From Gracilaria domingensis (Eukaryota; Rhodophyta; Florideophyceae; Gracilariales; Gracilariaceae): 64,000 nucleotides of DNA. This document shows positions 16,704-42,776 of the stretch, piece after piece. Positions within the stretch are counted from its first letter, which is position 1; each line of letters begins with the position of its first letter. Position numbers and translations under genes: made by a program. The notes under the pieces were generated by a model. That model did no database searches. It was not told the origin of the DNA and worked only from the letters and a program-made list of their open reading frames with translations. The stretch covers positions 1-64,000 of the forward strand of contig VCMS01000164.1 of NCBI GenBank assembly GCA_022539475.1. Direction: 5' to 3'.

Positions 16704-16706
16704 ATG

Positions 16707-22944: not shown

Positions 22945-25840
22945 GTCGGTGAGTCTTCTTCCCATAGATGCTCTCGAGTGATTCCACTCAGAATTACATC
23001 AGACGGTTACATTTTGCAGCTGCTTTCCTCAATCTACTTGGATTGAGGCCTATGGTCTGTTACTTCGTTTGTGCTTCTCTTGTCAGGAAGATCTCCACTC
23101 CTTCCACCAAATGAGGTTTGGTGGTGAGGCCTTCATGGTGAGCATTTCCATGAAATGCGCTCGGAATGCTTACAACGTTGTCACTCTGTCTTGTAACAGT
23201 TACATTAACTACATCGGATTGCGATATCATGGATCCAGATCACTGCACCTTTGAACACAGAAGTTTCTATTAGGTCCACCGAGGCCCCTTCTATAGTGTT
23301 TTGTTTACTGCTCTATACCGTCATTCCTCTTATCACTTGTTACCAAGAGAAGATGTCGTTACTACAAACCCATGGTACTGCTGTAGTCTGTGAGTTGATT
23401 TTCGAAGATGCTGGAGTATCTATACTATTGACAACTGATCTGGTATGTGTTTGGGCCCCATCTCTTCTGGTGCTCTTGTCCAACATGGATGCGCTATTGC
23501 ATGACGCCATCTTATGAGCACAAATCACGAATTCAACAATATCAGACAAACAGTGTGGTGGAGTAAGATGGACGAGTGGACCTTCCATGACCCCATGAAC
23601 GTGAACACATCCGTGCGTGTACGGACGTATCCGTCATCATCTCGTTTGCAACATTCCACTATCTCCCCCCCCCGCAGGAGTACGTCATTTCTCCTTCCTA
23701 ACGTTCAAAACAATATATTGGTGCGAACTGCAAACCATGAGTTGGTTTTCGTGCAGCGGCGAATACGTAATCTGCGTCAAGAAACACGATATCGTGTACT
23801 CGGCCATGAGTAGCGACATGTTTACGTTGTCAACTATCAAACATGTGAGCAGTCCGCGAAACGGTGTGCAGACCATGAAACGGTCGGGTAAACGACACTC
23901 TTACTACATTGCAATAATGTGTACCTTCGTATATAAAACTCGCAGTGGTGTCGTTTAAGAACTCGAACGTCTCTGCCATTGTCAATCAGAGATGTTAATT
24001 CTTTGATGTAGTGCTTATTAAGCTATTGAGTTGTGTCAACTGTGGCTTCTGTTCTCGATCACTCATATCTTAATATGAGGAACGATCCCTCTACTGATCG
24101 TAACGCACCGCGTTTTGGCGGGCAAAAGTCCAAATGAACTCCAAATACGCTTGAAGTACTTCCCGCTAGCAGTGGGCTTATTGCTTGCAAAAGCTTTGGT
24201 CTTTCTGTCACAAGTCCGTTGTCGTCTCGGCAGAAAATTTCCCGCCTTCATTATCCCTCGTGCGTATCAAACGCTTGCTTCAGCCAGGTATCTCGTGACT
24301 TTCATTGTGACCATGTGTATGAAAACATATATTTCTGTTGACTGATGTACAACGTGCATGTCTTTAACTCTCAGGACATTTCAATTGGTCTCACCCTATA
24401 ATATAATATCTGCGCGTATCTTGTACACACTCATGCTTTCACAGACGAAAAGCTCATGGGCGCCGACACGGGCAGCGCGCCACACGCAAGCGAATGGGAC
24501 ACCAGCTCTGCTTCTGTTTGTACGAGAGAATCTGCATGTCTCGAGCCAAGAGGTAGTGCGAAACTATTGAAGGTGCTCTAATGCATGCGGAACAAGGCGT
24601 TTCAGGACGTCTTTTTCCAATTCCCGTCAGGCAGGGAACGTGGAAAGTGTATGTCACGTTCCTATACACATCAGATCCAGAGTTCTTGAAACTAATACGT
24701 CTTCGCTTTGAAAAGAGTATAACGACAAAGTCCGTCGAATATGGGGCGCGGAGTAGAAAAATAGTAGAGGTGTTCCAACATGTGGTGACCAATGTCACCT
24801 CACTACAGAAGCGGGAAGGTGAGCACAAGCCTGTCCTGCAACTGTCACACTATAAGTGCACTTATCTAGAACGAGAGCCAGCACCAGTAGTCACGAGACA
24901 TGTAGTAGTCTCGGTAAACATAATTTTACTCAAATGACAATCTCATGTACAATGGAGCGTTATCAGCTTCATATCAACAGTCTAATGGTACAAGTGAATT
25001 TGTATCACAAGGGTAGACTTCTACTACCCCGTAACCTATGTTGGCACCAGTCGGGACATAGCTATATGATATGCTTAACATGGGGAAAAGACAATCAGAT
25101 GGAGCGCAAGATAATGTGCCCCACGGCTAGAAGATAGCGGGGTACTGCGGTCGTCATCTCCTTGAATTGTCGCACGATTATAGCCGCCGAGCGTTCGTGC
25201 AACCAATGCACCCTACCCAGAAAGAAACGTCCAAATGTCGAGTGCTGGTACAAAGCACGCAGCGGCGACAACATAGCGACTGCCATGGGCTTTGGTATGA
25301 TGTCTGTATAGACAGATACAATGATACCGTCGACTGACAGAGAACCTGACATAGTAATAGGGGAATACATACCCTTCATCATATGCTCCTCAATGGCCAG
25401 TACGAGTGCAAGACCGCGTCTGTCTCTTGCAGATGCTAGTTTTTGGCGAGGGTCGTCCAGAAATTGGCAAGGGTCGTCCAGTAAATTTTTTGAAAAAATA
25501 TCGAGATCAATTATTTCAAAATCTGCAGATAATTGCTTGGGTCGTCCAGAATCGCTGTGCAGTAAATACTGGTGGGTTTTCCACTCGTGCTAGTTCTTTA
25601 GTCAAGGGCTACCTGAACTGTATTTCGCGAAGTCTAGGTTCAGTTTCCATTAAGGTGCACATTACACGATACCTTCTGCGGAATGATACCCTGCAACGCA
25701 TGGAATACTAGTGCTAGTACAGATGATGCCCATTATGAAATCATACCGTTTTATTCGTATCTATTCTTCTATCGACCGCTTTTGCTAACCACTACTTCGC
25801 TATATTACATGTACCATTTCCCCATGATGGATCGGGTGTA
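22945..25840. other. Largely non-coding region
   Basis: No recognisable gene. One plus-strand ORF at 24581-24937 has protein-like text (TWKVYVTFLYTSDPEFLKLI, RKIVEVFQHVVTNVTSLQ) and could be a gene fragment, but no family is seen. The word GGTCGTCCAG recurs three times at 25451, 25474 and 25540. Confidence 0.3.
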
Positions 25841-25847
25841 GGCGCAA

Positions 25848-25999
25848 TCTGCGGCAGATGCCGCAGAGGGCACCTGCACCATAGTGCTGGATCGGTAGAA
25901 CACATACGCACTCCGAGAGGATGAGGCGCGAAGCGCCTCATCCTCTCCGTTCCTCATGTAGGGAACCATGCCCAGATGCATGGTTCCCTACTTGAGGAA
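25848..25999. repeat. Three consecutive hairpin-forming palindromes
   Basis: Perfect 9-bp arms at 25848-25856/25859-25867 (TCTGCGGCA). Perfect 15-bp arms at 25915-25929/25933-25947 with a 3-base loop (GAGAGGATGAGGCGC). Arms of about 22 bp at 25950-25971/25978-25999 with one mismatch. GCACCTGCACC-like words flank the group on both sides (about 25870 and 26000). No gene overlaps. Confidence 0.7.
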
Positions 26000-26229
26000 C
26001 CTGCACCTGCAACTCGTGAGCTACGTACGCATCAAAAGTCATTTACCTGTATACGCAAGCAGAAAGTATCCATAAGTTAGTCAATGATCCGTTAGATACA
26101 TTTGAAATGCGATGGAAAGTACCATTGATAAAACAAAACAGAAACGTTGCGCTAGAAAAGTCGAGGGACCTGGTAACTTGCAAACGGAAGAAGAAGCAGG
26201 AAAGGGATCGGTTAGATTACAAGCCCACC

Positions 26230-26750
26230 ATATCATCGTAAACCGCGAAAGGTGTCGAAGCGAGAACTCACAAGCAACGACACCAAGAATACCCATGCAG
26301 CAAACATACCGCAAAATGCGATAAACGAGAGAGCAGCCTATGTCGCAACCAAGTACCAGAATCGACTATCCCGCAAGCCAGTCAACCAAGATCGCCAATA
26401 CAAGAAGATCAACGTAAGGCGCGAGAAGAGAGGCGAGTCTATGAGGCAACCAAGTCAAACCATATCGCCAATGCACCAAAAGTAACGCAAGACGCGATAA
26501 GAGAGAGACCATCCTATGGCGCAACCTAGTCAACCAAGATTGCCAATGATGAACCTATCGCCCGAGCCAGTCAACCAATATCAACCAATATCGCCAATAC
26601 ACCAAAAGCAGCGCAAGACGCGAGAAGAGAGAAGAGTCTATGGCGGAACCAAGATCGCCAACAAACTAAAAGTAGCGCAAGATTCGAGAAGCTAGAGACG
26701 CCTATGGCGCAACAAAGTGAACCAAGATCGGCAATACCGCGTGATAGGTT
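26230..26750. repeat. Degenerate minisatellite
   Basis: Repeated modules with GAAGAGAGA, CTATGGCGCAACC, AGTCAACCAAGATCGCCAAT and ACCAAAAGTAACGCAAGACG recur in the same order about five times, with unit length near 90-110 bp and internal deletions. ORFs here are by-products of the repeat. Confidence 0.6.
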
Positions 26751-26899
26751 ACACGAGCAGTCAGAGATCGATCTTGAGAGACGAAATGAAACTGGTTGCG
26801 TACTTACAGTCGTTGTGGACGTCGGAAGAAATACAAAGGACGCACGTCAAATAGTGGTTACCTTCAATCACGTCAATGTTAGTAGCAAGACGTAGAACA

Positions 26900-27469
26900 A
26901 GATGGAACATATCGTAAGCAGAACGTAGTTGAACAAATGGAACGAGTTGGAGGCTGAAAACGGGAACCCGGTAACCCAAAGCTTATTTTCTGCCGTTTAC
27001 ATGTCGAATAGCGCGAAAAAACGTGGTGAGGATGGGTTAGTTTAGAGCAAAGATACATAGAAGAATATGGAAGAGAACCTACGAAAAGACTGCACGGAAT
27101 ACATCCGTGAGATACGGATGACTCCGTCCTACTTTTTTCCGCCCTCTACTTTAAGGAACCTCCATAAAGTACAGGGAGGAAAAAAGAAGGACGGAGCGGA
27201 GTATAACGCGAGGATGTGGATGGCACGGATCACGACGGTAAGGGAAGGTCGGACGTCGGAGGCGCGGCGGCGGCGGCGGAGGGAAGAGATTTATTTTTCT
27301 GTGCGAGATTGGACAGGTGTACAGCGTACAACGTTGCGAAACCACAGGTTTATAACCAGTGGTAGATAATACGAGAAGTACACCCTTGTGTTGAGGTCGA
27401 CGTGTACCTACGTTCCTTTTTGAACGAAAGCACGTGATTTGAACTCAAAATATATTCTCCGTTCTCAGC
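26900..27469. other. Spacer upstream of transposon copy B
   Basis: No gene supported. A GGCGGCGGC run lies at about 27262. No clear terminal inverted repeat for the element was found. Confidence 0.3.
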
Positions 27470-29434
27470 ATGACGTCGATCTTGACTGTCGCTCGACCTC
27501 CTTCTCCCTTCGGACGCCCTTCCCTTGCAGTCTTTGTCGTCGTTTCTCGTTCAGTTCTTCTTCCCATGGTCTACTACTGTACACATAAGAAGCGTGGGTG
27601 CCCCTTCGTTACTCGCCGAGGAGTCTTATCCCTTCAACAGCATGTCAACCATTGCCCGTTTCGTCTGAAAGCAGCGCTGGAAGACGACAATAGCCGGCCC
27701 ATTCGGAGAAGCAAGCGTCTCAAGCTTTCCGCACCCGCGCCCGCATCTTCCGAAACGGTCACTGCCCCTTGTCGCCTTCCCGAGCCTCCAGTGTCCGAGG
27801 ACATCGTCGACCCCACTCCGTGCGCCCCTCCCATTCCGGACACTTTGCATTGTGTTTCTCCTTCCCCGGCTCCCGCGTCATTAGAGCGAGAACACGGAAG
27901 CAGTTCCCGCCCAGTGCCTTCTGAGGAGGCCCTCGGTGATTTGCATATGGATTATCTCACGGTTTGTCTGGCTTCAGTAGCTTCCAACCTTGGTCATCGT
28001 GAGGCGGACGAGCTAATTGGGCTACTTCGGGACCCGCGATTCTCGCAAAAGCGATTCAACGAGACCATAACAAGTTCCAAGCGCTGTACAGAACTGAAGA
28101 AGGCCATTTTCGAACGATACGCCTCAAAGGACGGTTTCAATCGCAGAACTGTCTCGCCAGAAGGATGTAAGTTCAGCGCCACCCTCTACACGAGAGACCC
28201 CGTTCAGACACTTGTGAAACAGCTCCAGTTGGCTAACAACGAAAACACATTCTTCCACCCTATACCTCAGACCCACTCCACGAAAATATCTCACCCCATG
28301 TCCGGCTCTCTCGCAAGAGACGCCACCTCAAAACTTAAGGAAATGGTCATGGGCTCTTTGGATAGTAGAATAGTGTGGTACTCCCAAGAAATAAGTTACA
28401 GTGAATCTTTCGTAGGTCTTCTGCAGGTATACACCGATAAGTCTTCAACAACTCTAAAGCAAACATCGGTTACCGCCTATCCTCTTCACCTCATATTTCT
28501 CAACTTCTCCGACCAGCTTCGCCGTAAGTGTATCCGTGATGACCTCACAGTAGTGGCATACTTCCCTACCACACTGATCGAGGTTTCCGCATCTGAAGCA
28601 GACGCAATGCCATTTGTTTCTAGCAAGTCTCTACGCGAGTCCAGGATGCAAATCCTTCAAGAATCTCTTCGTCAAGTCCTGGAGCCCATTCTAAATCTCA
28701 CGCAGAAAGGTTTTCAGTTCATCGGCGAAGACAAACTAAGTCGAGTGTGCCATCCTCTGCTTGCAAGTTATTGTGCGGATATTCCTGAGGCTAAGGACAT
28801 TCTGTCTATTCTTCATGGCACCAAAACGGAAAGCCCGTGTCATAGATGCAAAGCCCCTCGCTCATCTTTATGCAGTCCTATTCCCACCTCATTCAACGGA
28901 CGTTCTCAAAAGCACACGAAAAGCATCCGAAAGACATACACAGCTATCTTGCAACATGCACAAAAAGACGAGGCGGAAAGACGTCCACGTCGTGCGAGGG
29001 AGAGGAGATCTCAAGCGGATACTCTGATGCGTTCAAATTCCATATCTCTCATTCCTTCGTTCCTCGAAACTTCCGTAAGCCTTGGAATGATCCCGGGATT
29101 GTCTCCATACAGTCTGTTCTCATTCGAACCATTACACAACTTGCATCTCGGCATCTCAAAGTTGATAAAAACGGCCACAATCGAGAGACTGCAGTCAGAC
29201 ACCCTGTGCACCACATTAGGAACATCTGCATCGCGTTCATTACATGTACAACAACGCGTATTGCAGGCAGCTGCAACACTCACAAGCATATTTACTTTGT
29301 ATTCGCTACTGAACTCATCTATTGCTCCAATGTCAGAGCCCAGTCCCAGGCGTACTGCTCTCCGTAGTCGAAATACAACTCTTCGCCCCTCTCAATATCT
29401 CTTACTGCTCTACAACGAAGTAGAGCATAGTTAG
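27470..29434 (+). CDS. Plavaka/CACTA-like DDE transposase, C-terminally truncated (copy B)
   Basis: 654 codons. A second in-frame ATG (27566) starts MVYYCTHKKRGCPF, giving a compact Cys/His cluster (C-x7-C ... QQHVNHCPF) like the N-terminal zinc finger of Plavaka-type transposases, followed by a basic RRSKRLKLS patch. The core has FSATLYTRDPVQTLVKQLQL, ENTFFHPI, SYCADIPEAKDILSILHGTK with a nearby CHRC pair, and SFEPLHNLHLGISKLIK. In Plavaka/Tnp2-type transposases these blocks surround the catalytic acidic residues. Similarity to copy A stops near codon 610, and the last codons read through the opposite-strand SET gene, with a 116-bp tail overlap at 29319-29434. The catalytic C-terminal part is therefore missing and this copy is unlikely to transpose by itself. 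The family call rests on recognition, not a search. Confidence 0.65.
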   Translation: MTSILTVARPPSPFGRPSLAVFVVVSRSVLLPMVYYCTHKKRGCPFVTRRGVLSLQQHVNHCPFRLKAALEDDNSRPIRRSKRLKLSAPAPASSETVTAPCRLPEPPVSEDIVDPTPCAPPIPDTLHCVSPSPAPASLEREHGSSSRPVPSEEALGDLHMDYLTVCLASVASNLGHREADELIGLLRDPRFSQKRFNETITSSKRCTELKKAIFERYASKDGFNRRTVSPEGCKFSATLYTRDPVQTLVKQLQLANNENTFFHPIPQTHSTKISHPMSGSLARDATSKLKEMVMGSLDSRIVWYSQEISYSESFVGLLQVYTDKSSTTLKQTSVTAYPLHLIFLNFSDQLRRKCIRDDLTVVAYFPTTLIEVSASEADAMPFVSSKSLRESRMQILQESLRQVLEPILNLTQKGFQFIGEDKLSRVCHPLLASYCADIPEAKDILSILHGTKTESPCHRCKAPRSSLCSPIPTSFNGRSQKHTKSIRKTYTAILQHAQKDEAERRPRRARERRSQADTLMRSNSISLIPSFLETSVSLGMIPGLSPYSLFSFEPLHNLHLGISKLIKTATIERLQSDTLCTTLGTSASRSLHVQQRVLQAAATLTSIFTLYSLLNSSIAPMSEPSPRRTALRSRNTTLRPSQYLLLLYNEVEHS

Positions 29435-32400
29435 AAAGGTCTGACTTGAACTGTATCACGGACTTCGCTTCCACCACCTGCACATTGGCACTTCGAGTCC
29501 TGTTTGACCGGGGCTCCGATAAATCGGGATCCCCGGCATGATATCCGGCGTCGTTAATGTAGCCCCCGATACAAAAAGGCGCCGGGACAATGTAGACTTC
29601 GCTCTCCTTTCTATCCTGAGCCTGTCCTGGTCTGTTCCTCAGGTGCAGAAACTCCGTACCAGTCACAGTGACCATCATAGAAAACAACTTGTACCGCACT
29701 GGAGTTGCTCCGAGACAGCCACTTCCATACGTTAAGTGTCTTTCCTTCCGGTTCGTCAGATCCGTGTATACCAAAGTTCCATAGAAATGACAGATAGTTT
29801 CCCCAGCCAATATCTTATGTTCCGTGAACACCCCCATACCAGCACGGGGATGTCGGATCTTAGAAGATGCTATATGTAAGCGATATCGATTGGCTTCAAC
29901 AGTCAACAGCATATGCATATCCATAAGATTCAGAGCTCCTCGGTACTTCTCCTCCCAAAGATCTACAGTACGCTCTCCACACTTGTCGACAAAGTCCCAG
30001 TCCTTCCAGTATCTTCCTAGGAACTGAGTAATATGTCCAGGCATCACTTGGTACTGGGGGTAACCAAATGGAGCCTCCCATTCAAGCCGACCTCGGTCCC
30101 GATGTGGAACCCGTTCATAGGTCGTTGAAGCCGCATCCACCACCTCCTGTTCAACCAGGATGTCATTCTTCCCCCCCCGAATAACTTCGGCCATAAGAGT
30201 CGTTAGATGGTGCTTCGCATGGCTGAAACATGGCCTATTCTTCTCGCACCCCAAGAACTTCCTATGCTTTGTCAGCGATAGGCACGCCATACCCGTAGAA
30301 AAAGTTCCCGCGAACATGTCCATGACAAGATCACCCGGTCTTGTGAAGCGACATATCAACTCCTTCATCAACTCCCTCGACTTCTGCTCCGGTCTCATGT
30401 ACTGCCCACCTGGTACTGAGCTACCTGGCTCATGTACCTTCCATGTCAACCACTCCCCCGCCCTCGGTTTGGGCACCCGGTCAATTACATTCCTGTTAGC
30501 CGGGAAAGTGGAAGGAATGAAATTGTTCTCCTCAAATGGAGTAAGACTGGCTTCCTCCGATGGTCGCAATCCACGCTTCACCCCATGAACGGCGTACTCC
30601 GTTACAGGCTGTATCCCAAACTTCCGTGGATTCCCTCCAACATTACTGCGATCCCGGATGAACACCAGTGGATTCGCATCCACTTTAAACGAAGGCATGA
30701 GTTCTGGTTTACCTTCGCTTCCAGCTTCATCTTTCGTACTCGCCGTTTCCGAAAGTATCCTGTGCCACACATGAAACTGTGCCATGGCACAGAATATAAT
30801 GAAGTGCCCACCTGACCGAAGCGCGGAACTTATTAAGTCAGCCGTACGGATCATGTCTTCCTCACTGAAGACATCGTGACCACTATTCCGTTTGTTCCTC
30901 TTCCTTCGAGTGTTAAAGGGAGGGTCTGTTAGGACAAGCTGTGCCTCACCCCATAAAATCTCACTCTGATTCACAAACGTTTCGTGTGTGTGCCTCAGGT
31001 CCTTCATGTCACAGTTGTACGCTACAAAGTGTGACTTTCTCATCCCCTTCCACACCTTGTCCATATTCATTCGAAGGAGACTGGATATCCCCTTCATGGG
31101 CGGCTCAATACCAGTCTTTTGGATGTTGTAACCAGCAACCCGAGATTCATGCTCCGCAAGATTCACCGGCTTCTCGAACTCGTCGCTATCGGAGCTCACG
31201 AGGTTCATATACTCTCGACGAGGTGGGGGTGGGGCAGACTTGGTCGAAGAAGGTTCGGCATTACCGGAAGTTTTAGGGGTTTTCGTCAGTTCAATATCAG
31301 GTTTCGCGTGAATGCCGACATGGAACCCTGCCGCATGACGCATATCCTGTATCGGTTTCCATAGCAACTCCGAAAACTTCTGAAATCGAGCAGGCAACTC
31401 ACCGGAGTCAGAGCTAGATACGGTATCCATCCGTATCTCCGAAAACTCTATCCAGTTCCTCATCTGATCAACCCGTAAGCTATAGAGGCTATCGTGGGTG
31501 CATATGGTTTCGAGGTCTGTCAAAAACTCCTTAGCCAGTATTCGCAGGTTTGTATCGCATTCATCACTCAAGGTCTCCACCGATCCACTAGTACTGCTCT
31601 GTGGCACATCCTTTGTGTTGAATCGAGTACTCTGGCTCGGCGGGGCATAACCAGACTCCCGTGTCTCTAGCGCTGTATACTTCAACGTCTGCATATTCAT
31701 GTAAATGTATGGTTTCACCATGTGCTGAACGTTCGTGTATCCAAGATGAGCCGCAAAACAACTCCATGCCCATACGACCTCACTGATACCGAATCCCAGT
31801 CGATCACAGTTGTCTTTGGAGAACGACGTAAAAGTGGGTATGTACACAGCTGGTGCATGGTTCACTTTTCGTTTCTTTTTCGGTTGTTTCTTCTTCATCA
31901 TTCGGATGTTGTCGTTCTCTCCCATTATGTGGCCGAGGTATGATAAGTATATAACGACCTCAAATGGGTTCACAGCTGTTGGTGGGATGAACACTGTCGT
32001 CTTCAGAACCTGCTTTCTCCTGGTCATGAAATAACCAACCAGGCATCGCACCGGTAGGTATATACCCATATCCATAGAGAGAAGGAAAAAATCGCGCAGT
32101 CTCTGGTCCTCATCCCCGTCCTTCTTGTCAAGAAGCTTCGTTACAAGATATCGCTGTTCCACAGGTTTGTTATTCACAACACTCTTTCGCAGCTGTTGCA
32201 GTGTCAAGTTCTGCAGGTTCTTGGAGTTAGTGGCCTCCTCAAACATCTTCCTTGCCTCCGGAATATCCTTATAGTTCTCGGCGCAGAACTCTATTAACCC
32301 TCTAAACCCCACGTCCCGTGGCCGATCAGGGCCTCCATCGCTGTTTGCCAAAGCATCGCGAAGAACCAAGAAAAGTCTGACATATGCATGGAACGCCGGA

Positions 32401-32456
32401 GGCGGAGCACTCATGTCGATAGGATGTATCTCCTCTCCAACATCGGTGGAATCCAT
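29319..32456 (-). CDS. DNA amino-methyltransferase fused to SET domain (copy B, intact)
   Basis: 1045 codons from ATG 32456. Residues 192-198 read PKKKRKV, identical to the classical SV40-type nuclear localisation signal. LVLTDPPF (DPPF at 511-514) is the catalytic motif IV and GGHFIIFC the next strand. Further on, TRPGDLVMDMFAGTFSTGMA (D713-G722) is the AdoMet-binding motif, followed by KFLGCEKN. Motif IV before motif I is the beta-class order of prokaryotic N6-adenine/N4-cytosine methyltransferases. From about 866 a SET domain follows: SKIRHPRAGMGVF, GETICHFYGTLVY, a GYINDAGYHAGDPDL block at the usual NHS position, and AVRDIERGEELYFDYGEQY. The N-terminal 480 residues are not recognised. The gene is divergent from ParB. 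No lesion is seen, unlike copy A. Predicted role: nuclear DNA methylation combined with protein-lysine methylation. Confidence 0.85.
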   Translation of the reverse strand: MDSTDVGEEIHPIDMSAPPPAFHAYVRLFLVLRDALANSDGGPDRPRDVGFRGLIEFCAENYKDIPEARKMFEEATNSKNLQNLTLQQLRKSVVNNKPVEQRYLVTKLLDKKDGDEDQRLRDFFLLSMDMGIYLPVRCLVGYFMTRRKQVLKTTVFIPPTAVNPFEVVIYLSYLGHIMGENDNIRMMKKKQPKKKRKVNHAPAVYIPTFTSFSKDNCDRLGFGISEVVWAWSCFAAHLGYTNVQHMVKPYIYMNMQTLKYTALETRESGYAPPSQSTRFNTKDVPQSSTSGSVETLSDECDTNLRILAKEFLTDLETICTHDSLYSLRVDQMRNWIEFSEIRMDTVSSSDSGELPARFQKFSELLWKPIQDMRHAAGFHVGIHAKPDIELTKTPKTSGNAEPSSTKSAPPPPRREYMNLVSSDSDEFEKPVNLAEHESRVAGYNIQKTGIEPPMKGISSLLRMNMDKVWKGMRKSHFVAYNCDMKDLRHTHETFVNQSEILWGEAQLVLTDPPFNTRRKRNKRNSGHDVFSEEDMIRTADLISSALRSGGHFIIFCAMAQFHVWHRILSETASTKDEAGSEGKPELMPSFKVDANPLVFIRDRSNVGGNPRKFGIQPVTEYAVHGVKRGLRPSEEASLTPFEENNFIPSTFPANRNVIDRVPKPRAGEWLTWKVHEPGSSVPGGQYMRPEQKSRELMKELICRFTRPGDLVMDMFAGTFSTGMACLSLTKHRKFLGCEKNRPCFSHAKHHLTTLMAEVIRGGKNDILVEQEVVDAASTTYERVPHRDRGRLEWEAPFGYPQYQVMPGHITQFLGRYWKDWDFVDKCGERTVDLWEEKYRGALNLMDMHMLLTVEANRYRLHIASSKIRHPRAGMGVFTEHKILAGETICHFYGTLVYTDLTNRKERHLTYGSGCLGATPVRYKLFSMMVTVTGTEFLHLRNRPGQAQDRKESEVYIVPAPFCIGGYINDAGYHAGDPDLSEPRSNRTRSANVQVVEAKSVIQFKSDLSNYALLRCRAVRDIERGEELYFDYGEQYAWDWALTLEQ

Positions 32457-32804
32457 CGCTTCAGCGCAAACAACGGAGGCGAGCCTTTAAAAGGCGACTT
32501 ACGCTGGGCACCCCCGCTTTCGGCAGCTCCTCCCAGCGCACTGCCAGTCTCGTCCGTGTCCGTGTCCGCTCGGAGCGATAGCGTCGCGTGTCGGAGCGAT
32601 AGCGTCGCGTGTCGGCCACGTCGCGATTCGGAGCTATTGCAACGGTCCCGTATTGTGCTAAAAGTCGCGGATCAAGTGGGTGTGAAGCGCTAGTTTTCTC
32701 TAGTTTGATATATGTGTACGGCGTGTGCAGCGAAATCACTGCCGGAAGTGCCGGGAGGAGTGTTTTGGGAGGTCTCCGGAAGGCGCCGGAATGTGACCAG
32801 AACG

Positions 32805-32988
32805 TGCCCGCGGGCGGGGGGGTCCGGTCGTGTTAGGGTAGGTACCCTAACACAACCGGACCCCCCCGCCCGCGGGCATAAAATCGCACATTTTTCAAAA
32901 AATCGTCCAAAATGTGCCCGCGGGCGGGGGGGTCCAGTCGTGTTAGGGTACCTACCCTAACACGACCGGACCCCCCCGCCCGCGGGCA
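32805..32988. repeat. Palindrome pair P1 and P2, 74 bp each, 110-bp period
   Basis: P1 is 32805-32878 and P2 is 32915-32988. Each has outer arms TGCCCGCGGGCGGGGGGG and their complement around a core TCGTGTTAGGGTA(G/C)(G/C)TACCCTAACAC. Starts are exactly 110 bp apart; the 36-bp spacer (AAATCGCACATTTTTCAAAA inside) is the reverse complement of the spacers between P3-P5. The palindromes may be protein-binding sites or cruciform-forming structures. Confidence 0.85.
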
Positions 32989-33272
32989 CGTTTTCGACGA
33001 TTTTTTGGCACCCTCCGGAGACCTCCCAAAACACTCCTCCCGGCACTTCTTGTACCCACTGCGTCACCTCAGTGAACCATCCCGGAAATTAGGGAGTGTC
33101 TGGAGGGTGGAGAAGACGGGATGGTCACCTCAGTGCACCATCCCGGAAATTAGGGAGTGTCTGGAGGGTTAAGATGACGGGATGGTGCACTAAGGTGACG
33201 CAGTGGGTACAGGAAGTGCCGGGAGGAGTGTTTTGGGAGGTCTCTGGAGGGTGCCAGAATGTGGCCAGAACG

Positions 33273-33566
33273 TGCCCGCGGGCGGGGGGGGTCGGTCGTG
33301 TTAGGGTAGGTACCCTAACACAACCGACCCCCCCCGCCCGCGGGCACGTTTTGGGCGATTTTTTGAAAAATGTGCGATTTTATGCCCGCGGGCGGGGGGG
33401 GTCGGTCGTGTTAGGGTAGGTACCCTAACACGACCGACCCCCCCCGCCCGCGGGCACGTTTTGGGCGATTTTTTGAAAAATGTGCGATTTTATGCCCGCG
33501 GGCGGGGGGGTCCGGTCGTGTTAGGGTACCTACCCTAACACGACCGACCCCCCCCGCCCGCGGGCA
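33273..33566. repeat. Palindrome array P3, P4, P5, 74 bp each, 110-bp period
   Basis: P3 is 33273-33346, P4 33383-33456 and P5 33493-33566, so starts are 110 bp apart twice. The core again pairs GTGTTAGGGTA with TACCCTAACAC, sometimes with GTCGGTCG instead of TCCGGTCG on one arm. The 36-bp spacers read GGGCGATTTTTTGAAAAATG in this orientation, opposite to the P1-P2 spacer, so the two groups form inverted arms. Confidence 0.85.
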
Positions 33567-33698
33567 TAAAATCGCAACATTCCGGTGCCTTCCCGGGACC
33601 TCCCAAAACACGCCGCCGCGCAGTGATTTCGCTACACCCGGCCGCCGGTACGTTGGCGCCGCTGTCAACGTGTATTGTCGGAGTAGGCGTACATGGAA

Positions 33699-33864
33699 NN
33701 NNNNNNNNNNNNNNNNNNNNNNNNNNNNNNNNNNNNNNNNNNNNNNNNNNNNNNNNNNNNNNNNNNNNNNNNNNNNNNNNNNNNNNNNNNNNNNNNNNNN
33801 NNNNNNNNNNNNNNNNNNNNNNNNNNNNNNNNNNNNNNNNNNNNNNNNNNNNNNNNNNNNNNNN
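33699..33864. other. Assembly gap (166 N)
   Basis: The run of N falls inside the right arm of the inverted repeat, which fits an unresolved palindrome. True length here is unknown, so symmetry of the two arms cannot be fully judged. ORFs crossing it are artefacts. Confidence 0.95.
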
Positions 33865-33996
33865 AAGTGCGCTGGGAGAGCTGCCGAAAGCGGGGGTGCC
33901 CAGCGTAAGTCGCCTTTTAAAGGCTCGCCTCCGTTGTTGTATCGTCCGAGCGAGCGTATTGTTGATATACACCTTTCACTGCAATAGCTGTTCAAC

Positions 33997-36020
33997 ATGA
34001 AGCCAACTCGTGTTCGAAAGCGTACGCAAAGCGTGACTCCTCGCACTCGGCGGAGCACTCGATTATTGCAAGGTGGAATGCGGGTTTCTCTGCAGATGGA
34101 TATTGAGGATGAAGGAAAGGTGATAGTCGGGGAAGCGTTGTTGCATGGAATTGGAAGTGTTCTACGCCGCGAGTTGCACGGGAAGCAATTGGACCAGGTC
34201 TTGTGGTGGTTCATAATATTCTCATCAGTCGAAGCGGTCAGACGTTCTACCCTTACCGGGCGGAGGGCCTGGATCTTCCACAATATATCCAGGATCTCCG
34301 GACGGCCGCTCCTTGGGATGAGAAAATGATGGAACCGGTGGCAGCCAGCATTCCGGCGTCGAAGCGAGGAACGGTGAGCGCTATGAGTGAGGTGATGACG
34401 CCGACAAGCCGCACGGAGCCAATTCGAAGTTCATCAACACCGAGAGGTAGCGCATCAGTAGCACCTCCGCGGGCAGGTCCGTCGTCTGTTACGAAGCGGT
34501 CTATGGAGACGAGAGCATCCCCAGCTACGAAGCGGACAGGTCAAACAAAGTCTACCTCCGCTACGAAGCCCACTGCGTCGAAAAGGGCTTCTCCTGCGAT
34601 GAATCAGACCGTCGACACAAGGGGATCTTCTGCGTCGAAACAGACGGTTCAGCAGGGGACGGCTGTGCAAGAGGAGGAAGATGAGATCATGAAAGGTCCC
34701 CTTCCAGACGCGGATGCGCAATCCGCGCAAGGAGCTGGTCCATCTGTACCCCAAACTGCACCAGAAACTGCGGAGCAGCAGGACGATGACGTTGTGCTTC
34801 TGTCCGCAAGAATGGCACGTTCAAGTGTTTCTGGCGAGCGGTCTGGAACACAAGGGACACCTACTCGGAGCAAGACGTACAGACGAATTCGTCAGAAGGT
34901 ACCAAAGGTGAACCTCAATCAGTACCGGATGGTTGTTGTTACTGTTGACATCACTCTGGTGGACACTCCGCCCAATTTACTCCGTGGAGTAAGTAAACGC
35001 CACGTTGAAGCCCTTGTGAAGAGTATGGAGGAGCGGGGGATATTGCAGTCGATGGGTTCTCCAGTGGTGGCCTTACAAGATGCTACTACGGGAGAGAGGG
35101 ATACTGACAAGGGACGCCTAACGAAGAAGTGCTTCATTGTAGATGGTTTGCATCGTCTGAAAGCTATACAATATTTGGCAGCGACTGGTGCACCGAAGTG
35201 GAAGCGATTAGCCAAGTTTTGGCGTTGCAATCTGCTGATACGAAGAGATGGGAGGCCCATTGGGATGAAGGAATTGTTATGTGTTGCTTCGTACCTCAAT
35301 GAGTCGACGAGTACCATGCGAAGGATGATGTTTGCAGACAAGATACACTCTATAGTTAGTGTGGTCGCCATTCTAATTGAAGATGTTGAGGGGGTGACGC
35401 CGGCAGACGTGGATCCTGCAGAAGTGACAGAAGTGTTGAAGGAGAGCCAACTGATTGGGACTGTGCAAGAGCGTCAGTACCTGAGATATGCCAATGTCGC
35501 CCTGCAACTCATGTCTCGTGAGGGAATGCTGGCCCATTTCGAGGATATATGTGAGACTGTGAGTGACATAGGTCTCACACATCTGTCCCATACTCCGCTA
35601 TATGTTTTGGATGCGGAGGAGTTTTCCTTCATTCTTGATTGTCTTCAGATGTTTCTATTGAAGGGCAAGTCGACGAAGACAAAGCAATGGAAAAGCTTTG
35701 AGGAGGTTCGAGGTTTCTTTTATGATAGAGCAGTGTCTCTGTTCCGCGCGGCTAGAGCAGTGAGGAATGAACTGAACGAGGAAGAGTCCATGGAAGTGTT
35801 CCTGAAACGCGAAGTCAGTCTTTCTGCTCCATCGAATGAAGATGACGTTGAAGACCCAGACAACAACGCAGCTGTGTATCAGTTCCTTTTGGGACAAGTT
35901 GTGAACTTCAACACATTGCCGCGTGTTCGGAGCAGGACGAACTCAATTAGAACTGCCACGACTTCCGTTCAGAATCGATTGCGGACGATGCTCAAGGTAA
36001 TTCCGCCCCCGCACCAGTGA
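33997..36020 (+). CDS. ParB-like protein of transposon copy B
   Basis: ATG 33997 opens a basic N terminus (MKPTRVRKRTQSVTPRTRRS) that runs 110 codons. The main frame (to 36020) is another one, readable from about 34203, so a frame change or small intron lies near 34200. In the 605-codon main frame, a low-complexity Ser/Thr/Ala-rich linker (repeats of PATKRT and ASKR type) is followed by the ParB/sulfiredoxin fold: YRMVVVTVDITLVDTPPNLL (about 241 on), HVEALVKSMEERGILQSMG, and CFIVDGLHRLKAIQYL (310-325; Asp314, Gly315, His317, Arg318 at the ParB GHRR position). A helical C-terminal half follows. ParB domains bind parS-like palindromes and often accompany methyltransferases in phages; here the palindromic array is directly upstream. 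DNA binding is inferred. Confidence 0.7.
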
Positions 36021-36562
36021 AGCAGTCCGTGACGAAGAGGAGGACTCCCGCTGCTGCTGCTGCAACATCTGCCAGTGAAGAAGGGGAGCCGCGAAGAAGT
36101 GCACGAGAACGGGCGCAGGTGAGTTATAGGGAAATTGAGCACGGCCGAAATCGAGGTGCCATAGAAGTTCTGGATAGCTCTGAAGAAGAACAGCGGGCTC
36201 CGCCGAGGAAGAAACGGAGAAAGACTTTCACACAACAGATGAGATCTACTCTGAACAGCATGACACCGGATGACCTGATGTCTCAACTAAATGAACATGT
36301 GCTGAGAGGAAGGTCGATGAAGGTTCAGTTCGTGGCATTGGGAGAGGGAGCGAATGCAGAGAACGCAGGCAGTTCTGCATTTGTGGATGACGATGAGCTT
36401 CTTTCTGTGACAGTTCCACGGGTTGTCACCGTCGAGAAGATGCTGCGCCAGACGATCAGCAAGAGACAGGTGGGGGGTCATTTGATGACGAGTTACCTAC
36501 AGCTCTTCCGGAATCTGAGGAGCACGGACTTGTTCGAGGTGACCCATATGATGGCCCACTGA
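36017..36562 (+). CDS. Basic linker ORF of transposon copy B
   Basis: Overlaps the end of the ParB frame by 4 bp (GTGA), and its frame also reads open upstream of that point, so it may be the continuation of the ParB protein in a shifted frame. It contains an Ala-rich stretch, RRSARERAQVSYREIEHGR, an acidic/basic switch (LDSSEEEQRAPPRKKRRKTF, a likely nuclear signal) and a helical TLNSMTPDDLMSQLNEHVL. Near 36475 a neighbouring frame (SFDDELPTALPESEE) aligns better with copy A than the annotated one, pointing to another small indel. It has no recognised family. Confidence 0.45.
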   Translation: MKQSVTKRRTPAAAAATSASEEGEPRRSARERAQVSYREIEHGRNRGAIEVLDSSEEEQRAPPRKKRRKTFTQQMRSTLNSMTPDDLMSQLNEHVLRGRSMKVQFVALGEGANAENAGSSAFVDDDELLSVTVPRVVTVEKMLRQTISKRQVGGHLMTSYLQLFRNLRSTDLFEVTHMMAH

Positions 36563-36569
36563 ACCCATC

Positions 36570-37908
36570 ATGGTGCGGGTATGCCAGGCTGAGACCGCAG
36601 GAATGGCAGGGAAGAACGTAATTGAGCACAAGGACCCCTGGCTCAGAGTCATTCACTTGCCGAAGGGACATAGGTCGGAGCTGCTAAGTGTCTCGAATCT
36701 CAGAGATGTACACCATCTTGTCTTTTGGCACGCTGCAAGGGCTGAACATCGCCTACGGGCGGAGACATTTGGTATGCAGTATCCTCGTACTCGACCGACA
36801 GGTATGGATGATGAAGAGGTGCTGTGGGTTGCTGCGAAGGAGCATGACGAATTTGGGCAAATGTTCTTCGCCCGAATGCAAGCTGAGCTAAGGCAGAATG
36901 GATATTGCGTGCTTGATGGCTTTGCGACGGATAATGGTGTCCCTAAATGGGAGGAGTTGGAAGAAGTTCGGGAGTTCGGAGATGTGTCGGGGAAGTTGGT
37001 GGACTTCTTCGAGAATGAGTATGGAGCGATGCCGGATATACGGAAAGGAGAGGAACAGAAGTCGTTTGTTCAAATAATCAACGATGATGAAGGATGGAAG
37101 GACGGTAGCGATGGACCATTTGAGGGGAGAGTGATGTCGACACGTTGGGGTACGGTGGAGAAGCCGGAGGATAATGAGGAGCTCAGGTGGGTTGTAAGAT
37201 CGCGTGCTTTACTTGATGTTCGAATGGGTACAATTGCTGCGGCTTTGGGACTATGGGACAATGAAGGGAAGCTGTGAAGATGTACACTCCGAAAACTGGT
37301 GGTCGATTTCTGGGGACGACGAGAAAGTGCAAGCGCCAGACGCTGCACACCGACTTCAGTGGTCTGGTTACGAAGGAAACAATGAATACTGGCAACCCCG
37401 GATACTTTGTAATGGCCTCTGGGAAAGAGGGCTTTCCTCTCTGGGTGAGCGCTGGAAGCCATCAACTGGTGGGGATGAACAACCAACAGTTGCGAGTGAT
37501 GTCGGAGGTGTATCCAGCGAAGAAGATAATCATCCCACCGTACTCTGTATTCGTGGGCCGTGGTGATGTGACACATGCTGGAGCAAGTGGGAAGGACAAG
37601 GTGGATAGGCCCGAGTCTATGGATTTGCTGGTTAGATACCACATGTACATGGTACCAGAGGGCTACGCACTACCTGATGCTGTTCACGGGTGCGGGATTT
37701 CCGACCCACGTTTGTCAATGGTGACGAGGAGGAGGAGGCGGAGGATGAACTGTTGTCCGATAAGGAGGGTGGGGCGGTTGACATGGACGAAGACCAAGTG
37801 GTCGTGGAGATTGGTGTGGAAGCGGACGCCGGTAGAACCGAAGTGCTCGAGAGTAGTAGTGATGACGATTTGCCAATAATGAGGCTGCGAGCGCCTCGAA
37901 GTGGATGA
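36570..37908 (+). CDS. 2OG-Fe(II) dioxygenase-like protein (copy B), split over frames
   Basis: First ORF 36570-37277: a KDPWLRVIHLPKG start, RDVHHLVFW, then LRQNGYCVLDGF, a common N-terminal strand in 2OG oxygenases, ending AAALGLWDN. Second ORF from ATG 37280: MYTPKTGGRFLG, QTLHTDFSG (His23 and Asp25, HxD), PGYFVMASGKEGFPLWVSAG, IIIPPYSVFVGRGDVTHAGA (His99) and LLVRYHMYM (Arg119). HxD...H...R with this spacing fits the Fe(II) and 2-oxoglutarate ligands. An acidic C terminus continues in a third frame from about 37690 (FRPTFVNGDEEEEAEDELL), as in copy A. The stop-then-ATG junction near 37277 is found in both copies. Candidate roles: oxidising methylated DNA or methyl-lysine. The element family and substrate are unproven. 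Confidence 0.65.
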
Positions 37909-38208
37909 GAATGAGATGATTAGTAAATTATGTGTGTCTTGCGAGTATTAAGAGTAGTATACTATTACAAGGCTATACATATGAACATAGAAAAGGTGCG
38001 GCAGGCTGGTAATTGAACAAATGTCAAACGTCTTTGGTCCAGTTGCGTCTAATTGCAACATGCCAAATGCTCGGTATCGTTAACATCATTGGTGGCACCA
38101 TTCAATTCGCAATTGAACATGTAGCGTCCTAACACTTCTGAAACTGCACTTAAGGTTGCTTTTAAGAGAAGTATATGCAGTTCCTGTCTATGCGGTACTT
38201 GTGGCAGT

Positions 38209-39069
38209 ATGGTGACTGTATCAGGAAAAATGGCAGAGGAACAGAGAGACTTGGCGGAAATTTCACCAAATACCTTGTCTAAGTTCATATATGCCAATGG
38301 TTACGGTATATTAAGTTCCGTTGATGGAACGTTGAGAAGAGAAGGAGAGTCAATTCCAGAAGAAGTTGTGAAGTGTATGAAGTTCATTGACGAACGTGTT
38401 GGTTTCGGACTTGTCACAGGGGGTGATGTGGGCGACGTGGAGGGGAAAATGGAAGGACTCGGAGACTATAAGTTTGGTGTCTCGGCGAATCATGGAGCTT
38501 TCCTGCGTTTCTCTGACGAGAGGGAAATTAAGGGTGCATTCAATGATCACACCCTTGACCACACTGTTGACGGACTACTGTTCCTGGCAAGGGATTTGAA
38601 TAGGAGGCATGGTATTGTGAATGATGATGACAAGGGGTTCGTGGAGACCAGAAGTGATAGTGGCCTTCCCAATTTCGTGTACAACAAACTGTGGCAGTGG
38701 AAAGAAGAAGTGGATTCTGCTATTGGGGACCTGTTGCAGAAGATGGATGCGTTTGTTATCTATCCCGGCGATAAAAGTTGCGAAATTGTGGACAAGCGAT
38801 ACACAAAAGGAAGCGGAGGAGAAAATCTTGTGGATAATGAACCGAGATTTATTGATACGGATGACGTCGTGACGTTCGGAAGTGCTTTGAGCGACGGGCC
38901 TTTGCATGAGGTAGGCGTGTACGGCGTTCACGTCAAAGAAGATTGTATCCCGGGTGGAGTACACAACCTGTTCGAAAGCGTGGAGGATGTACATTCGACA
39001 ATTATGTTGGTGGCTCTGTTGTACGGCTACGAGGAAAAGCAGCACGATAAAAACCACCATGATTCATAA
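38209..39069 (+). CDS. HAD-superfamily phosphatase-like protein lacking the nucleophile Asp
   Basis: 286 codons. The first HAD motif reads GILSSVDGTLRR, where the catalytic DxD should be DVDGT, so the nucleophile Asp is Ser. Motif II region is GFGLVTGGD, and the C-terminal metal-binding area reads VTFGSALSDGPLHE. The fold resembles Cof/sugar-phosphatase-type HAD proteins (with a cap inserted around 110-200). A paralogue with an intact first motif lies tail to tail at 40070-39265. Loss of the nucleophile suggests a catalytically dead or non-phosphatase member. Expected cytosolic; no signal peptide seen. Confidence 0.7.
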   Translation: MVTVSGKMAEEQRDLAEISPNTLSKFIYANGYGILSSVDGTLRREGESIPEEVVKCMKFIDERVGFGLVTGGDVGDVEGKMEGLGDYKFGVSANHGAFLRFSDEREIKGAFNDHTLDHTVDGLLFLARDLNRRHGIVNDDDKGFVETRSDSGLPNFVYNKLWQWKEEVDSAIGDLLQKMDAFVIYPGDKSCEIVDKRYTKGSGGENLVDNEPRFIDTDDVVTFGSALSDGPLHEVGVYGVHVKEDCIPGGVHNLFESVEDVHSTIMLVALLYGYEEKQHDKNHHDS

Positions 39070-39264
39070 AAGGGTATTGAGATATACACGACACTTTTAT
39101 TACTGAGATCTCATATCATAGCTAAGTATTAAGGGCATCGTAGCACTTGAAACAAATTCCAAGAGCATTTCTAAACCTTTGACACTTGCATTTTCTGTAC
39201 CCGTACAGTTCTGCCACCCTTCTGATGGTCTCATGCACGTCCTCCACGCCATCAACAAGATATG

Positions 39265-40070
39265 TTACCGCTGCTGATGGTCTTCTCCCTTCACATGAAC
39301 TGCCAGGGTTGCCATTTCATATAGAGGGCCATCATTGGAAGCATTCCCGAAAGCAACGATTAAATGTGTGTCGAACTGGGGGTCGTTTTCAACCAAGGCT
39401 AGCGCCCCACTATTTTTCGTGAAACGAATGTCCCCTATATCACAGTTTTCATCCTGAGGGTACGCAACCAGGTTCGGAAAGGATGTCAACACTTTTGAAA
39501 TACCGGAGTTAACTTCTGTTTTCCACTTCGACAGTCCATTGTACGTGAAGTTAGGGAGTCCACTGTCTTTTCTAGTGCTCACCACTGCTTGTTGACGCTC
39601 TTCGTGAAGTCCGTGCGATTCATTTAAGGAGAGTGCAAGTCTCTCAAGTTCGGCTGCACATCTTTGTAGCCTTCCCTGTCAAGGTCCTGATCAATTTCGG
39701 TACCATTGGATAATCTCACCCGTGCGCCTTGGTTTCCAGAGATGCCAAAAGTGTAGCCACCCAGGTGCTCCATGAAACTCTCGGCATCCTCTATATCTCG
39801 CCCAGTAGCAATTCCGAAACCAACGCGTGCGTTGATGTACTTCATGCATTTGACTGTTTCGGCAGGAATGTTCTCCCCAGCTCTTTTCAGAGTACCGTCA
39901 ACATCACTAATCACGGCGTAGCCATTTTCGAATATTTCGTTAGCCAGCTGCTGAGGAGTTACTTCTTGGGCTCTAACTTCTGAGTTATACATGTTTTGAA
40001 AGCTTTCGAAAGGGTTCGTTTTGCAAATGGGTGTGGGTATACGAATGAGAAGGATGTGATTGATGTTCAC
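39265..40070 (-). pseudogene. HAD-superfamily phosphatase-like paralogue with one frame break
   Basis: The 5' part (40070-39624) contains AVISDVDGTLKR with both Asps of the DxD motif, GFGIATGRDIED and TFGISGNQGA. The 3' part (39585-39265, another frame) contains KDSGLPNFTYNGLSKWK and VAFGNASNDGPLYEMA, the metal-binding motif. One frame change lies between about 39625 and 39665; around it the shifted frame aligns with the neighbouring paralogue. The two genes are convergent and clearly related along their length, so an inverted duplication is likely. Either this copy is a recent pseudogene or the break is an assembly error. Confidence 0.65.
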
Positions 40071-40618
40071 AAGGTGTTTCGTAGTATAAAAAGAGTCTAC
40101 GAACGACCATATACGGGTATTGTAGTACTGTTTTAAAACGTTACTAGGAGGAGAAGTTTTTGCATCGATTTGAAGTAAAGAAAGGATGATTTAGTCATAA
40201 ATTATATGTACGGGTTCAAGTGGGTAAAGAAAACTGTAAATATCTTTACATGAGCTTAGAAATCAAGAAGAGTAAAACAACCTCCATTATGGGTTGAAAC
40301 CCATAAAAGGTTTACCTTACTTTATACGGGTGCCCCAAGTAATGCAAACGCTTAGTTCTTCAGAAATATCACAATTTTTGTACCTGTTTCGTTACTAGTA
40401 TCGTGCACTTTAATGATATGGAATGACCATTTTCTATCTAGCAAAATCTTAGCGAAGTATTAGTGATAACGGATGTAGGATTTAAAGGGGCATATTTGAA
40501 CCACAGAAGGACGAACAATATAAGTAATGTAATAGGAACAGGTCATTTCGATAAAGTAACTTTTATGTTTAACTATCTCTAAAAGGTTTACAACACCGAA
40601 AAGTCATGTGTTCGAACC
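40071..40618. other. Intergenic, AT-rich
   Basis: No gene or repeat recognised. Confidence 0.4.
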
Positions 40619-41522
40619 TCAAAGCTGGGGGAATGGGGAGGGGGATAACTTTTCCTTAACAACGTTGACGTAGTTTGTATGAAAAGGAGCGGGGTCACCG
40701 CCTACAATGTTTCTTTCTTGGCGGGAAAAGTCGTAGAAGTACGCGTTCCTAAACTGAAAGTCGGAGAAAGAAGTAGGGAAGCCAATGAGAGTTTTCCCAT
40801 ATGCAAGAAGTCGCCCAACGGTCTCTTCCAGGTTGAAAGTAGTACCTGTCTTAAGCGAAACTATCTTCAACAGCTCTTTCATTATTGTGAGCACAACCGT
40901 ACTGCACTCCGTAGCGACTACGTCCATAGGAATGAAACCTCTTGAGGCCCCGACGATGTTGAACGCTGATAGCCACACGAGCTTCTCATAATAGCTTACG
41001 AGAAATGTGTCTTCGTCGACAACCGCGCAAGTGAGACCCATAGACCTAAACCTGTCTGCAACGTTGGAGGCCCACTTTCCTGTTGCGACAGTGAGACCAT
41101 CCGGACTTTGAGGAGTGACACCATCCTGCGGAGCTGCGTTTCTTGAGGGGACACCAACGTATAGGACAACTTTTGAACATTTGTCCACACCGAGCTTCGA
41201 AAGCAATGGTATGATGTCTCCATTCTGGAAGAAAACGAGATTCTCTCTGAGCGAATAAGGGCAAGCCTGAATTACGGTCTCCAGGGTGTTCGTTCTTCCA
41301 CAAACTAGTATCGGTACATCAGAAAGATGAGAGGTAGCAGCCATGCTGCAGAATTCGTGTGCGGAAATGACCGTATCTTCTTCGTTCGCCAGCATGGTAC
41401 CTATACGCCCCCTTCCAACAATAACGGCCCGAGTCGTTCGGGCGGGAGATGAGGCCTGAGGGACGTCAGAGTATCTGGGACTCGGAGGCGGAGTGGGAGG
41501 CATGTCGGACTGGGAGTTCATT
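40619..41522 (-). CDS. Ketopantoate-reductase-like (PanE/ApbA-type) dehydrogenase
   Basis: Start chosen at ATG 41522 (MNSQSDMPPTPPPSPRYS); the longer open frame upstream is low-complexity and probably untranslated. About 300 codons. A Rossmann dinucleotide motif reads AVIVGRGRIGTML, followed by VPILVCGRT, LVFFQNGD (the NG strand typical of the family) and, at the start of the helical C-terminal domain, EKLVWLSAFNIVGASRG, which parallels the KxxxNxxxN region of ketopantoate reductases. The FNIVGA segment keeps the Asn. Family members use NADPH; the substrate here is uncertain because many eukaryotic homologues are uncharacterised. A Pro/Ser-rich N-terminal extension is unusual. Confidence 0.6.
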
Positions 41523-41921
41523 GCAAGTGTTTGATTGTTTTTGTGTGACGATAAAAAGGGAAGATGGGGCGGAGAACTGCTGGGGTAAAGAGTAATACGT
41601 AAGTACAAACGGTTGGGAAGCGCAGAACGGGAACATGGTTCACTTTGTGAAAGTGAGCGAAATGTATGATATGTGATTGTACTGAATGAATGATAGGCCT
41701 TGTATGAGACGACAAGCCACAAAGTGTGATGATCTTTTATGAAAGGTAGGTGGAAGAGTAAAAAGTGTGCCATGAATGAAACTGATTTCGAACCTGAGTT
41801 GTAAAGTAGTTGTAAAGTACGAGTTACGGGGAGCTTGAATACAGGATGAAAGGAGCCATTTTGGCTTCATAAATGAGGTGAACGGGTTTTATAGCTTCAA
41901 TCGGATTGCCATAATTAAAAG

Positions 41922-42239: not shown

Positions 42240-42299
42240 AGATAGTAGCATAAAATTATTGTTTATTACATTGTTACCTTTACGTGTTATCACAACTAA

Positions 42300-42640: not shown

Positions 42641-42776
42641 AGGTGGGTGGGGACTATGTGAAGAGGGGACAGAGAGATGGCGCTTAAATAGTGGAAGGTG
42701 CGGAGGTGTACAGTGGATGTTTTGGCGGGAAATGGGATGAGGGAAACAGGGACAATCATGGTGCTGGATATAGCCC

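Follow-up and report, generated by a model that had tools for sequence, protein, structure and literature searches.

A stretch of 64,000 nucleotides from the red alga Gracilaria domingensis (assembly GCA_022539475.1, contig VCMS01000164.1, positions 1 to 64,000 of the forward strand; hereafter, the window) presents a puzzle: What use could a DNA transposon make of a DNA methyltransferase fused to a SET domain, and of a ParB-like domain fused to a probable dioxygenase? The element that raises this question combines the two fusion genes with a transposase of the Plavaka type. We read it as a giant red-algal DNA transposon, Plavaka-like and equipped with its own DNA-modification and chromatin kit, and put the probability of this reading at about one in two. 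A preceding sequence-only reading of the window had recognized a transposon here but had framed it by fungal elements, which was wrong, the host being a red alga.

Conserved gene order and linkage

In representatives of three families of the element, named W (to which the window copy belongs), B, and A, the genes follow a common order: Plavaka-type transposase on the forward strand, gene X and the methyltransferase-SET fusion on the reverse strand, and then the ParB-dioxygenase fusion on the forward strand. The window itself contains two copies, at 1.2-14.5 and 27.5-37.9 kb, which the sequence-only reading had described as diverged copies of equal gene order and orientation. This description holds, for the two have no mutual blastn alignment but show a colinear series of tblastx matches, mostly with amino acid identities of 30-50% and far beyond chance. 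The first of them (copy 1) is a degenerate member of family A at 1468-14517 (+), in which the four genes keep the common order and contain stops: transposase at 1468-4646 (+), gene X at 4744-6218 (-), methyltransferase-SET at 8998-10735 (-), and ParB-dioxygenase at 11322-14517 (+). Family B is represented on contig C12 (the window being C164:1-64000), with the transposase at positions 2475-5804 of the fetched stretch, gene X at 5827-8516 (-), methyltransferase-SET at 8842-12195 (-), and ParB-dioxygenase at 13035-16850 in several frames. The W copy on C187 has its transposase at 3534-6779 (+, 1082 amino acids), followed by gene X in two to three frames on the minus strand, the methyltransferase-SET (-) and ParB-dioxygenase (+) fusions, a HAD-like open reading frame (ORF), and a frame of 415 amino acids. 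For gene X, Pfam returned nothing above a cutoff.

Linkage across the genome was counted for families A and B, without family W and without any further rows whose identity was <=35%; the rows used (109 of 150, 95, 116, and 91 of 104) merged to 101 methyltransferase, 87 dioxygenase, 102 ParB, and a fourth set of 88 loci. At least 85 of the 101 methyltransferase loci have a partner at the expected place and strand, which upholds the earlier claim that these proteins travel with a Plavaka-type transposase. The partner is the transposase at no fewer than 55 loci, ParB at 57 or more, and the dioxygenase at 45 or more, and all three are present at a minimum of 21, whereas the wrong-strand control gave 0, 0, and 0 partners. 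These linked counts are lower bounds, because some contigs end inside elements and only the matches listed were counted. The dioxygenase lies 0.95-1.6 kb beyond ParB at 79 or more of the 102 ParB loci. Independent occurrence of the genes is mostly not found: 16 of the methyltransferase loci have no listed partner in place, and 8 of the 87 dioxygenase loci have neither methyltransferase nor ParB listed nearby.

Extent, termini, and transposase

Homology of the window copy to the copies on C106, C50, and C187 begins at 25417 and ends at 44240, which defines an element of 18,824 bp (+) with the termini 5'-CGTCTGT...ACAGACG-3'. Its ends read CGTCTGTCTCTTGCAG.. and ..CTTTGCAGAACACAGACG, forming short and imperfect terminal inverted repeats at 25417-25436 (+) and 44221-44240 (-). 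The termini are present in 19 of 20 short stretches elsewhere in the genome (10 left and 9 right) that were chosen via end-sequence searches, the left end on C16 being a mismatch. The limits of 27470-37908 given by the sequence-only reading have to be replaced by 25417-44240, a span that lacks, at 29241, about 4 kb of the element. At this deletion junction (29241-29242) the 3' half of the transposase and most or all of gene X are gone; the stretch is kept in all 10 other fetched copies, three of which are the copies read end to end. That the element might start at the break is ruled out by homology upstream of 29241. The W copies read end to end measure 22.8 kb on C187, 22.5 kb with an N gap on C106, and about 19 kb, again with an N gap, on C50.

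Searches of the genome (77.9 Mb in 680 contigs) with a 501-bp methyltransferase probe returned at least 40 copies (243 candidates) with 99-100% identity throughout, a likeness suggesting that activity may be recent. In a first look, the element ends gave 610 and 643 candidates, more than the 243 of the methyltransferase probe, which hints at internally deleted derivatives, bearing in mind that the probe lengths differ and that candidates are not matches. On some contigs, as in C141 compared with C164, one decayed element recurs in counterpart copies that run in opposite directions, as though the assembly had retained duplicated haplotypes.

The clearest insertion site is that on C158. Its joined flanks match a dispersed repeat (36 of 40 among the matches listed cover the full query, at 75-85%), and three aligned relatives of this empty site lack exactly four letters, namely a 2-bp AT duplication and one CG of the element. 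It follows that the element runs from CG to CG and that it produced a 2-bp duplication at C158; Plavaka elements duplicate 2 bp, or 2-3 bp, at their targets. A CG target with CG duplication is ruled out by the same site, the CG being part of the element. Among the six copies with both ends read, that on C187 has AA on either side, and four (window, C106, C50, and C137) have flanks without duplication. The joined-flank search covered two copies, and for the second, C50, two relatives of the left flank do not continue into the right flank. Since several copies have no matching duplication and the C50 flanks are discordant, some copies may be rearranged.

The transposase is represented in the window by its 5' part (27470-29241, +), which in C187 belongs to the open frame of 1082 amino acids. 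The Plavaka profile PF18759 matches the window ORF (27470-29431) with E 3.4e-19 and its family B counterpart with 6.1e-24, the scores of 69.7 and 85.3 bits exceeding the curated cutoff of 26.3. Plavaka transposases have C(2)C and H(3-4)H motifs between the second D and the last E, and a CHRC in both W and B would fit the former. The termini CGTCTGT..ACAGACG differ from the TGT..ACA or CATCA..TGATG that passages of Kojima (2025, PMC12730594) give for PlavakaA and PlavakaB, and for this reason we do not file the element under either group.

Two fusion genes and the array between them

The methyltransferase-SET fusion (29319-32456, -) has an intact frame of 1045 amino acids in the window and was aligned across the three families. 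Pfam places a DNA methylase and a SET domain in the single ORF 29322-32456 (-), as the sequence-only reading had proposed: PF01555 matches with 3.5e-15 and PF00856 with 1.4e-7 (6.1e-9 in C187). These assignments, which come from sequence profiles, are well supported. The domain at 30228-30941 (-), of the beta class of amino-methyltransferases, shows LTDPPF followed later by FAG, so that DPPF precedes motif I; it reaches 57 and 54.5 bits against a cutoff of 26.7, matches phrog_67 (3.5e-23), and has eight matches among Protein Data Bank (PDB) profiles: DpnA twice, CcrMI, MboIIA, RsrI twice, and two labelled only "Methyltransferase". The enzyme thus resembles beta-class adenine methyltransferases such as DpnA, CcrM, and MboIIA, and those of phrog_67, in sequence and in domain order with motif IV before motif I, while differing in its eukaryotic transposon setting, in the SET fusion, and in an altered motif I. 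The canonical motif I of this class is FxGxG; here it reads FAGTFSTG in W and YSGTFSCA in B, and we therefore call the methyltransferase adenine-type by resemblance only. The SET domain lies at 29361-29840 (-), with scores of 32.3, 36.7, and 23.7 bits against a cutoff of 22.4. SET domains are characterized by an NHxCxPN motif and a catalytic tyrosine motif; in the present proteins DYG is retained and a YINDA..NV pattern stands in place of NHxCxPN. A protein-database search with the fusion returned no matches.

Between families A and B, the methyltransferase-SET fusion is under purifying selection. The proteins share 65-69% of amino acids, with a proportion of synonymous differences (pS) of 0.72-0.74, near saturation, and a nonsynonymous rate (dN) of 0.20-0.24. 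The ratio of nonsynonymous to synonymous rates (dN/dS) is 0.07-0.10 in six of the seven A-B pairs, the seventh being saturated and not computable; L038 and L039 have identical values, leaving five distinct pairs. Within family A the ratio amounts to 0.55-0.80 in six comparisons with L036, and family W shares 33-38% of amino acids with the others, at saturation.

The second fusion, ParB-dioxygenase, occupies 33997-37687 (+) and is broken into several frames in the window, with the ParB/sulfiredoxin-fold domain at 34930-35310 (+) and the probable dioxygenase core at 37265-37687 (+). Owing to these frameshifts the two parts had appeared as separate ORFs, and the sequence-only reading took them for two proteins. 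In intact copies they form a single gene: Queries with either part land in open frames of equal length on C434 (1326 amino acids), C61 (1327), C140 (1326), C20 (1248), C446 (1246), C146 (1290), and C69 (1240), and the sequences of C69 (L069) and C434 (L070) hold both parts in one frame. Separate genes are consequently ruled out. Regarding the ParB part, its likeness to the ParB/sulfiredoxin fold comes from structural matches of a predicted model of low confidence; in Foldseek the top two rows are KorB and a ParB-N domain, none of the matches reaching E<=0.001. The profile of phrog_3264 matches at 5.9e-4 in the window and 7.8e-4 in C69 and is not matched in family B, while Pfam gave no ParB match, alignment against PDB profiles nothing, and a protein-database search with the ParB ORF no matches. 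It is on the fold matches of this model that the ParB-like identity is assigned. Profile searches with hidden Markov models, which the sequence-only reading had suggested for all six proteins, have in sum supported Plavaka, N6_N4_Mtase, and SET, and returned no Pfam match for either half of the second fusion.

Is the second half an active enzyme? On its HxD..H..R motif, it is probably a dioxygenase dependent on 2-oxoglutarate and iron(II). In the window the motif comprises HTD at 37346-37354, H at 37574, and R at 37634, with 76 residues to the distal histidine and the arginine 20 later in W. Families W (window and C187) and B have it complete; copy 1, from family A, keeps HTD and the distal histidine and loses its frame before the arginine. 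A profile of this part finds 97% identity with "hypothetical protein FGB62_128g110 [Gracilaria domingensis]" (P0001), which is devoid of the arginine, and 43% with P0002. By the former match a fungal origin is rejected. The alternative that we deal with here is a dead or unrelated fold, serving as a structural or DNA-binding module. It draws on the want of any Pfam, PHROG, or PDB-profile support (alignment against PDB profiles returned only six 5'-nucleotidase chains, at E 0.25-0.28), on an AlphaFold2 model with a predicted local distance difference test score of 30 and no fold support, and on altered metal ligands, HxD having become RxD in P0002 and the distal histidine lysine in C69. Conservation of HTD and the distal histidine across W, B, and copy 1, at normal spacing, speaks against this alternative, which we regard as unlikely, though far from negligible. 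The 2-oxoglutarate dioxygenase recognized beforehand is thus retained as to its motif, while profiles and folds have added nothing to it. Between W and B the whole fusion shows a proportion of nonsynonymous differences (pN) of 0.50, below the pS of 0.80.

The two fusion genes diverge from a promoter region at 32469-33938 (33699-33864 reads N), which in W is bounded by a perfect inverted repeat of 61 nt (74 nt at 98.6%) that comes within 13 and 58 nt of the two start codons. It encloses an array of five near-perfect palindromes at 32797-33622; every palindrome holds two CCGCGG cores at a spacing of 62 bp, which in C187 varies from 59 to 62 bp. CCGCGG is enriched in this region at the loci read in W, B, and A, as judged from 200 shuffles each: 10 occurrences in W against a shuffle mean of 1.39 and maximum of 5, 4 in B (C12) against 0.49 and 3, and 5 in A (C157) against 0.59 and 4. 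In the B region of C12 the perfect palindromes are 76 and 46 bp long and their CCGCGG pairs lie 62 and 60 bp apart, and the 20 kb of that stretch have neither CCGCGG nor perfect palindromes (arms >=10) outside the divergent region. In C157, CCGCGG stands inside inverted repeats without the 62-bp pairing, and the region of the degenerate copy 1 has zero CCGCGG. Beyond the core, the W sequence is unlike those of A and B, which have GAGTTCATAGCCGAGATCAT in common. Among the best 40 array loci of the genome, a W gene is listed at the expected position for at least 26 and for 14 none is listed; an independent dispersed repeat is consequently not favoured. A diverged W palindrome array also occurs at 63002-63463, in a part of the window where no W gene was found close by. 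Bacterial partition sites consist of a palindrome array beside the ParB gene. Because the present array likewise adjoins the ParB gene, we propose that ParB may bind it, the CCGCGG inverted repeats being, by this analogy, candidate ParB sites.

To the right of the fusions, the W copies read contain the HAD-like ORF (38125-39069, +), for which the C187 copy matches PF08282 at 6.1e-5 and in which the first aspartate of what we take to be motif I is absent, and the 415-amino acid frame (40622-41866, -), of no assigned function and present in C187 too; no counterpart of either was seen in copy 1 or on the stretch from C12. A second HAD-like gene piece, inverted and broken (39191-39965, 49-55% amino acid identity), adjoins the first. 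The right 1 kb or so of the element (43246-44236) has an inverted counterpart of 72% identity at 46100-47119, beginning near 46096 with a similar terminus; by this sequence likeness, the end of a related family adjoins the window copy there. Further on, direct repeats of 352 bp (47851-48202 and 52900-53251, 97%) bracket fragments of an integrase and an RNase H (51028-51882), which together probably represent a long terminal repeat retrotransposon.

Possible functions and described relatives

Considering the parts together, self-marking of the element fits them best. The ParB part would load on the CCGCGG arrays and so place the dioxygenase on the element; the methyltransferase-SET fusion would write 6-methyladenine (6mA) on element DNA and methylate nearby histones from one polypeptide; the dioxygenase would reset the methyl mark, be it 6mA or another rather than 5-methylcytosine (5mC) at CpG; and the kit would thereby mark the copies as "self", keeping them expressed and able to transpose. 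Taken at full length, this would be a self-addressed write-and-reset system, in which a parS-like CCGCGG array loads a ParB clamp carrying the dioxygenase over the element, while the methyltransferase-SET protein couples 6mA to histone methylation, giving the element a chromatin domain of its own, independent of host machinery. In this complete form the proposal is a tentative one, with the odds leaning against it.

The main rival to self-marking is that the kit regulates transposition itself: Adenine methylation would time the event, and the ParB-dioxygenase clamp would mark or pair the ends or confer target immunity. Dam methylation times the transposition of IS10 in this manner. The adenine type of the methyltransferase agrees with such a role, as do the position of the ParB-like fold beside the array and a mutation pattern bearing no sign of CpG 5mC silencing from which the element would have to escape. 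However, the SET domain and the dioxygenase are left unexplained, and CCGCGG is not clustered at the element ends, so that we hold this explanation to be doubtful.

A second possibility is that a TET-like dioxygenase erases host CpG 5mC from the element as an anti-silencing device, in the way proposed for fungal TET-bearing transposons. TET/JBP genes are carried by fungal Plavaka and other DNA transposons, according to passages of PMC12730594, and the likeness consists in a dioxygenase-coding DNA transposon, Plavaka included. The HxD..H..R motif would suit this role, and the ratio of observed to expected CpG is slightly lower in the elements (0.92-0.94) than elsewhere in the window (1.04-1.10), a small difference. 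In contrast, CpG transitions at ten family-A loci (0.040) are not in excess of those at non-CpG C/G (0.036), which speaks against decay driven by 5mC, and similarity to TET could not be shown. The possible oxidative demethylase of the sequence-only reading, if taken to act on CpG 5mC, finds no support in these data and seems to us improbable. The weakest explanation, that the genes are captured passengers without function for the element, can point to the HAD-like ORF and 415-amino acid frame at the right end of W, which resemble captures, and to the decay of family-A copies at the dN/dS given above, but is very improbable in view of the gene order and orientation shared by representatives of all three families and of the low A-B ratio of methyltransferase-SET, for which it is already unlikely, the ParB-dioxygenase offering only its pN below pS.

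How does the element relate to those already described? With Plavaka (Kojima 2025, PMC12730594, as far as its passages describe the group) it shares a PF18759 match well above cutoff, the CHRC resembling the C(2)C motif, and the 2-bp duplication at the clearest site; it differs by residing in a red alga, by its termini, by its length of about 22.5 kb, and by the cargo of methyltransferase-SET and ParB-dioxygenase. A close parallel is Sola1-1_Ec32 of the brown alga Ectocarpus, presented in a passage of PMC12477816 as a giant DNA transposon of 21.5 kb with an accessory protein, on the strand opposite to the transposase, that carries ParB-like and N4/N6 DNA-methyltransferase domains. Both are giant algal DNA transposons with these two domains, yet in the brown alga they form one protein of a Sola1 element, whereas here they are distributed between ParB-dioxygenase and methyltransferase-SET and accompany a Plavaka-type transposase. 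Red algae have also been reported to harbour giant EnSpm elements that bear accessory genes (Bostrychia; Petroll et al. 2025, as cited in PMC12477816); going by that citation, they resemble the present element in host group and accessory genes, and relatives of it may already be described among them. Transposon-borne SET genes are known from HarbingerS and MuDR families in Phytophthora (cited in PMC12730594), in a passage that mentions no fusion to a DNA methyltransferase.

Our literature search, made up mostly of titles and abstract openings, named no transposon with a methyltransferase-SET or ParB-dioxygenase protein, and neither fusion is named in passages of PMC12477816, PMC13297926, PMC12633428, PMC11244446, PMC12502185, and PMC12695648. 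The sequence-only reading, which knew of no described element with this combination, is upheld in part only: Proteins joining ParB to a methyltransferase in transposons of algae have been published, as have giant elements of red algae that carry accessory genes. As far as the search reached, the new parts are the two fusions and the array.

If the fusions work as their domains suggest, one polypeptide would write both DNA adenine and histone methylation, and a clamp of the bacterial partition type would guide a mark-erasing enzyme to a eukaryotic mobile element. The element also extends the reported algal theme of ParB with a methyltransferase, adding a carrier of the Plavaka type, the new fusions, and a candidate site acting in cis.

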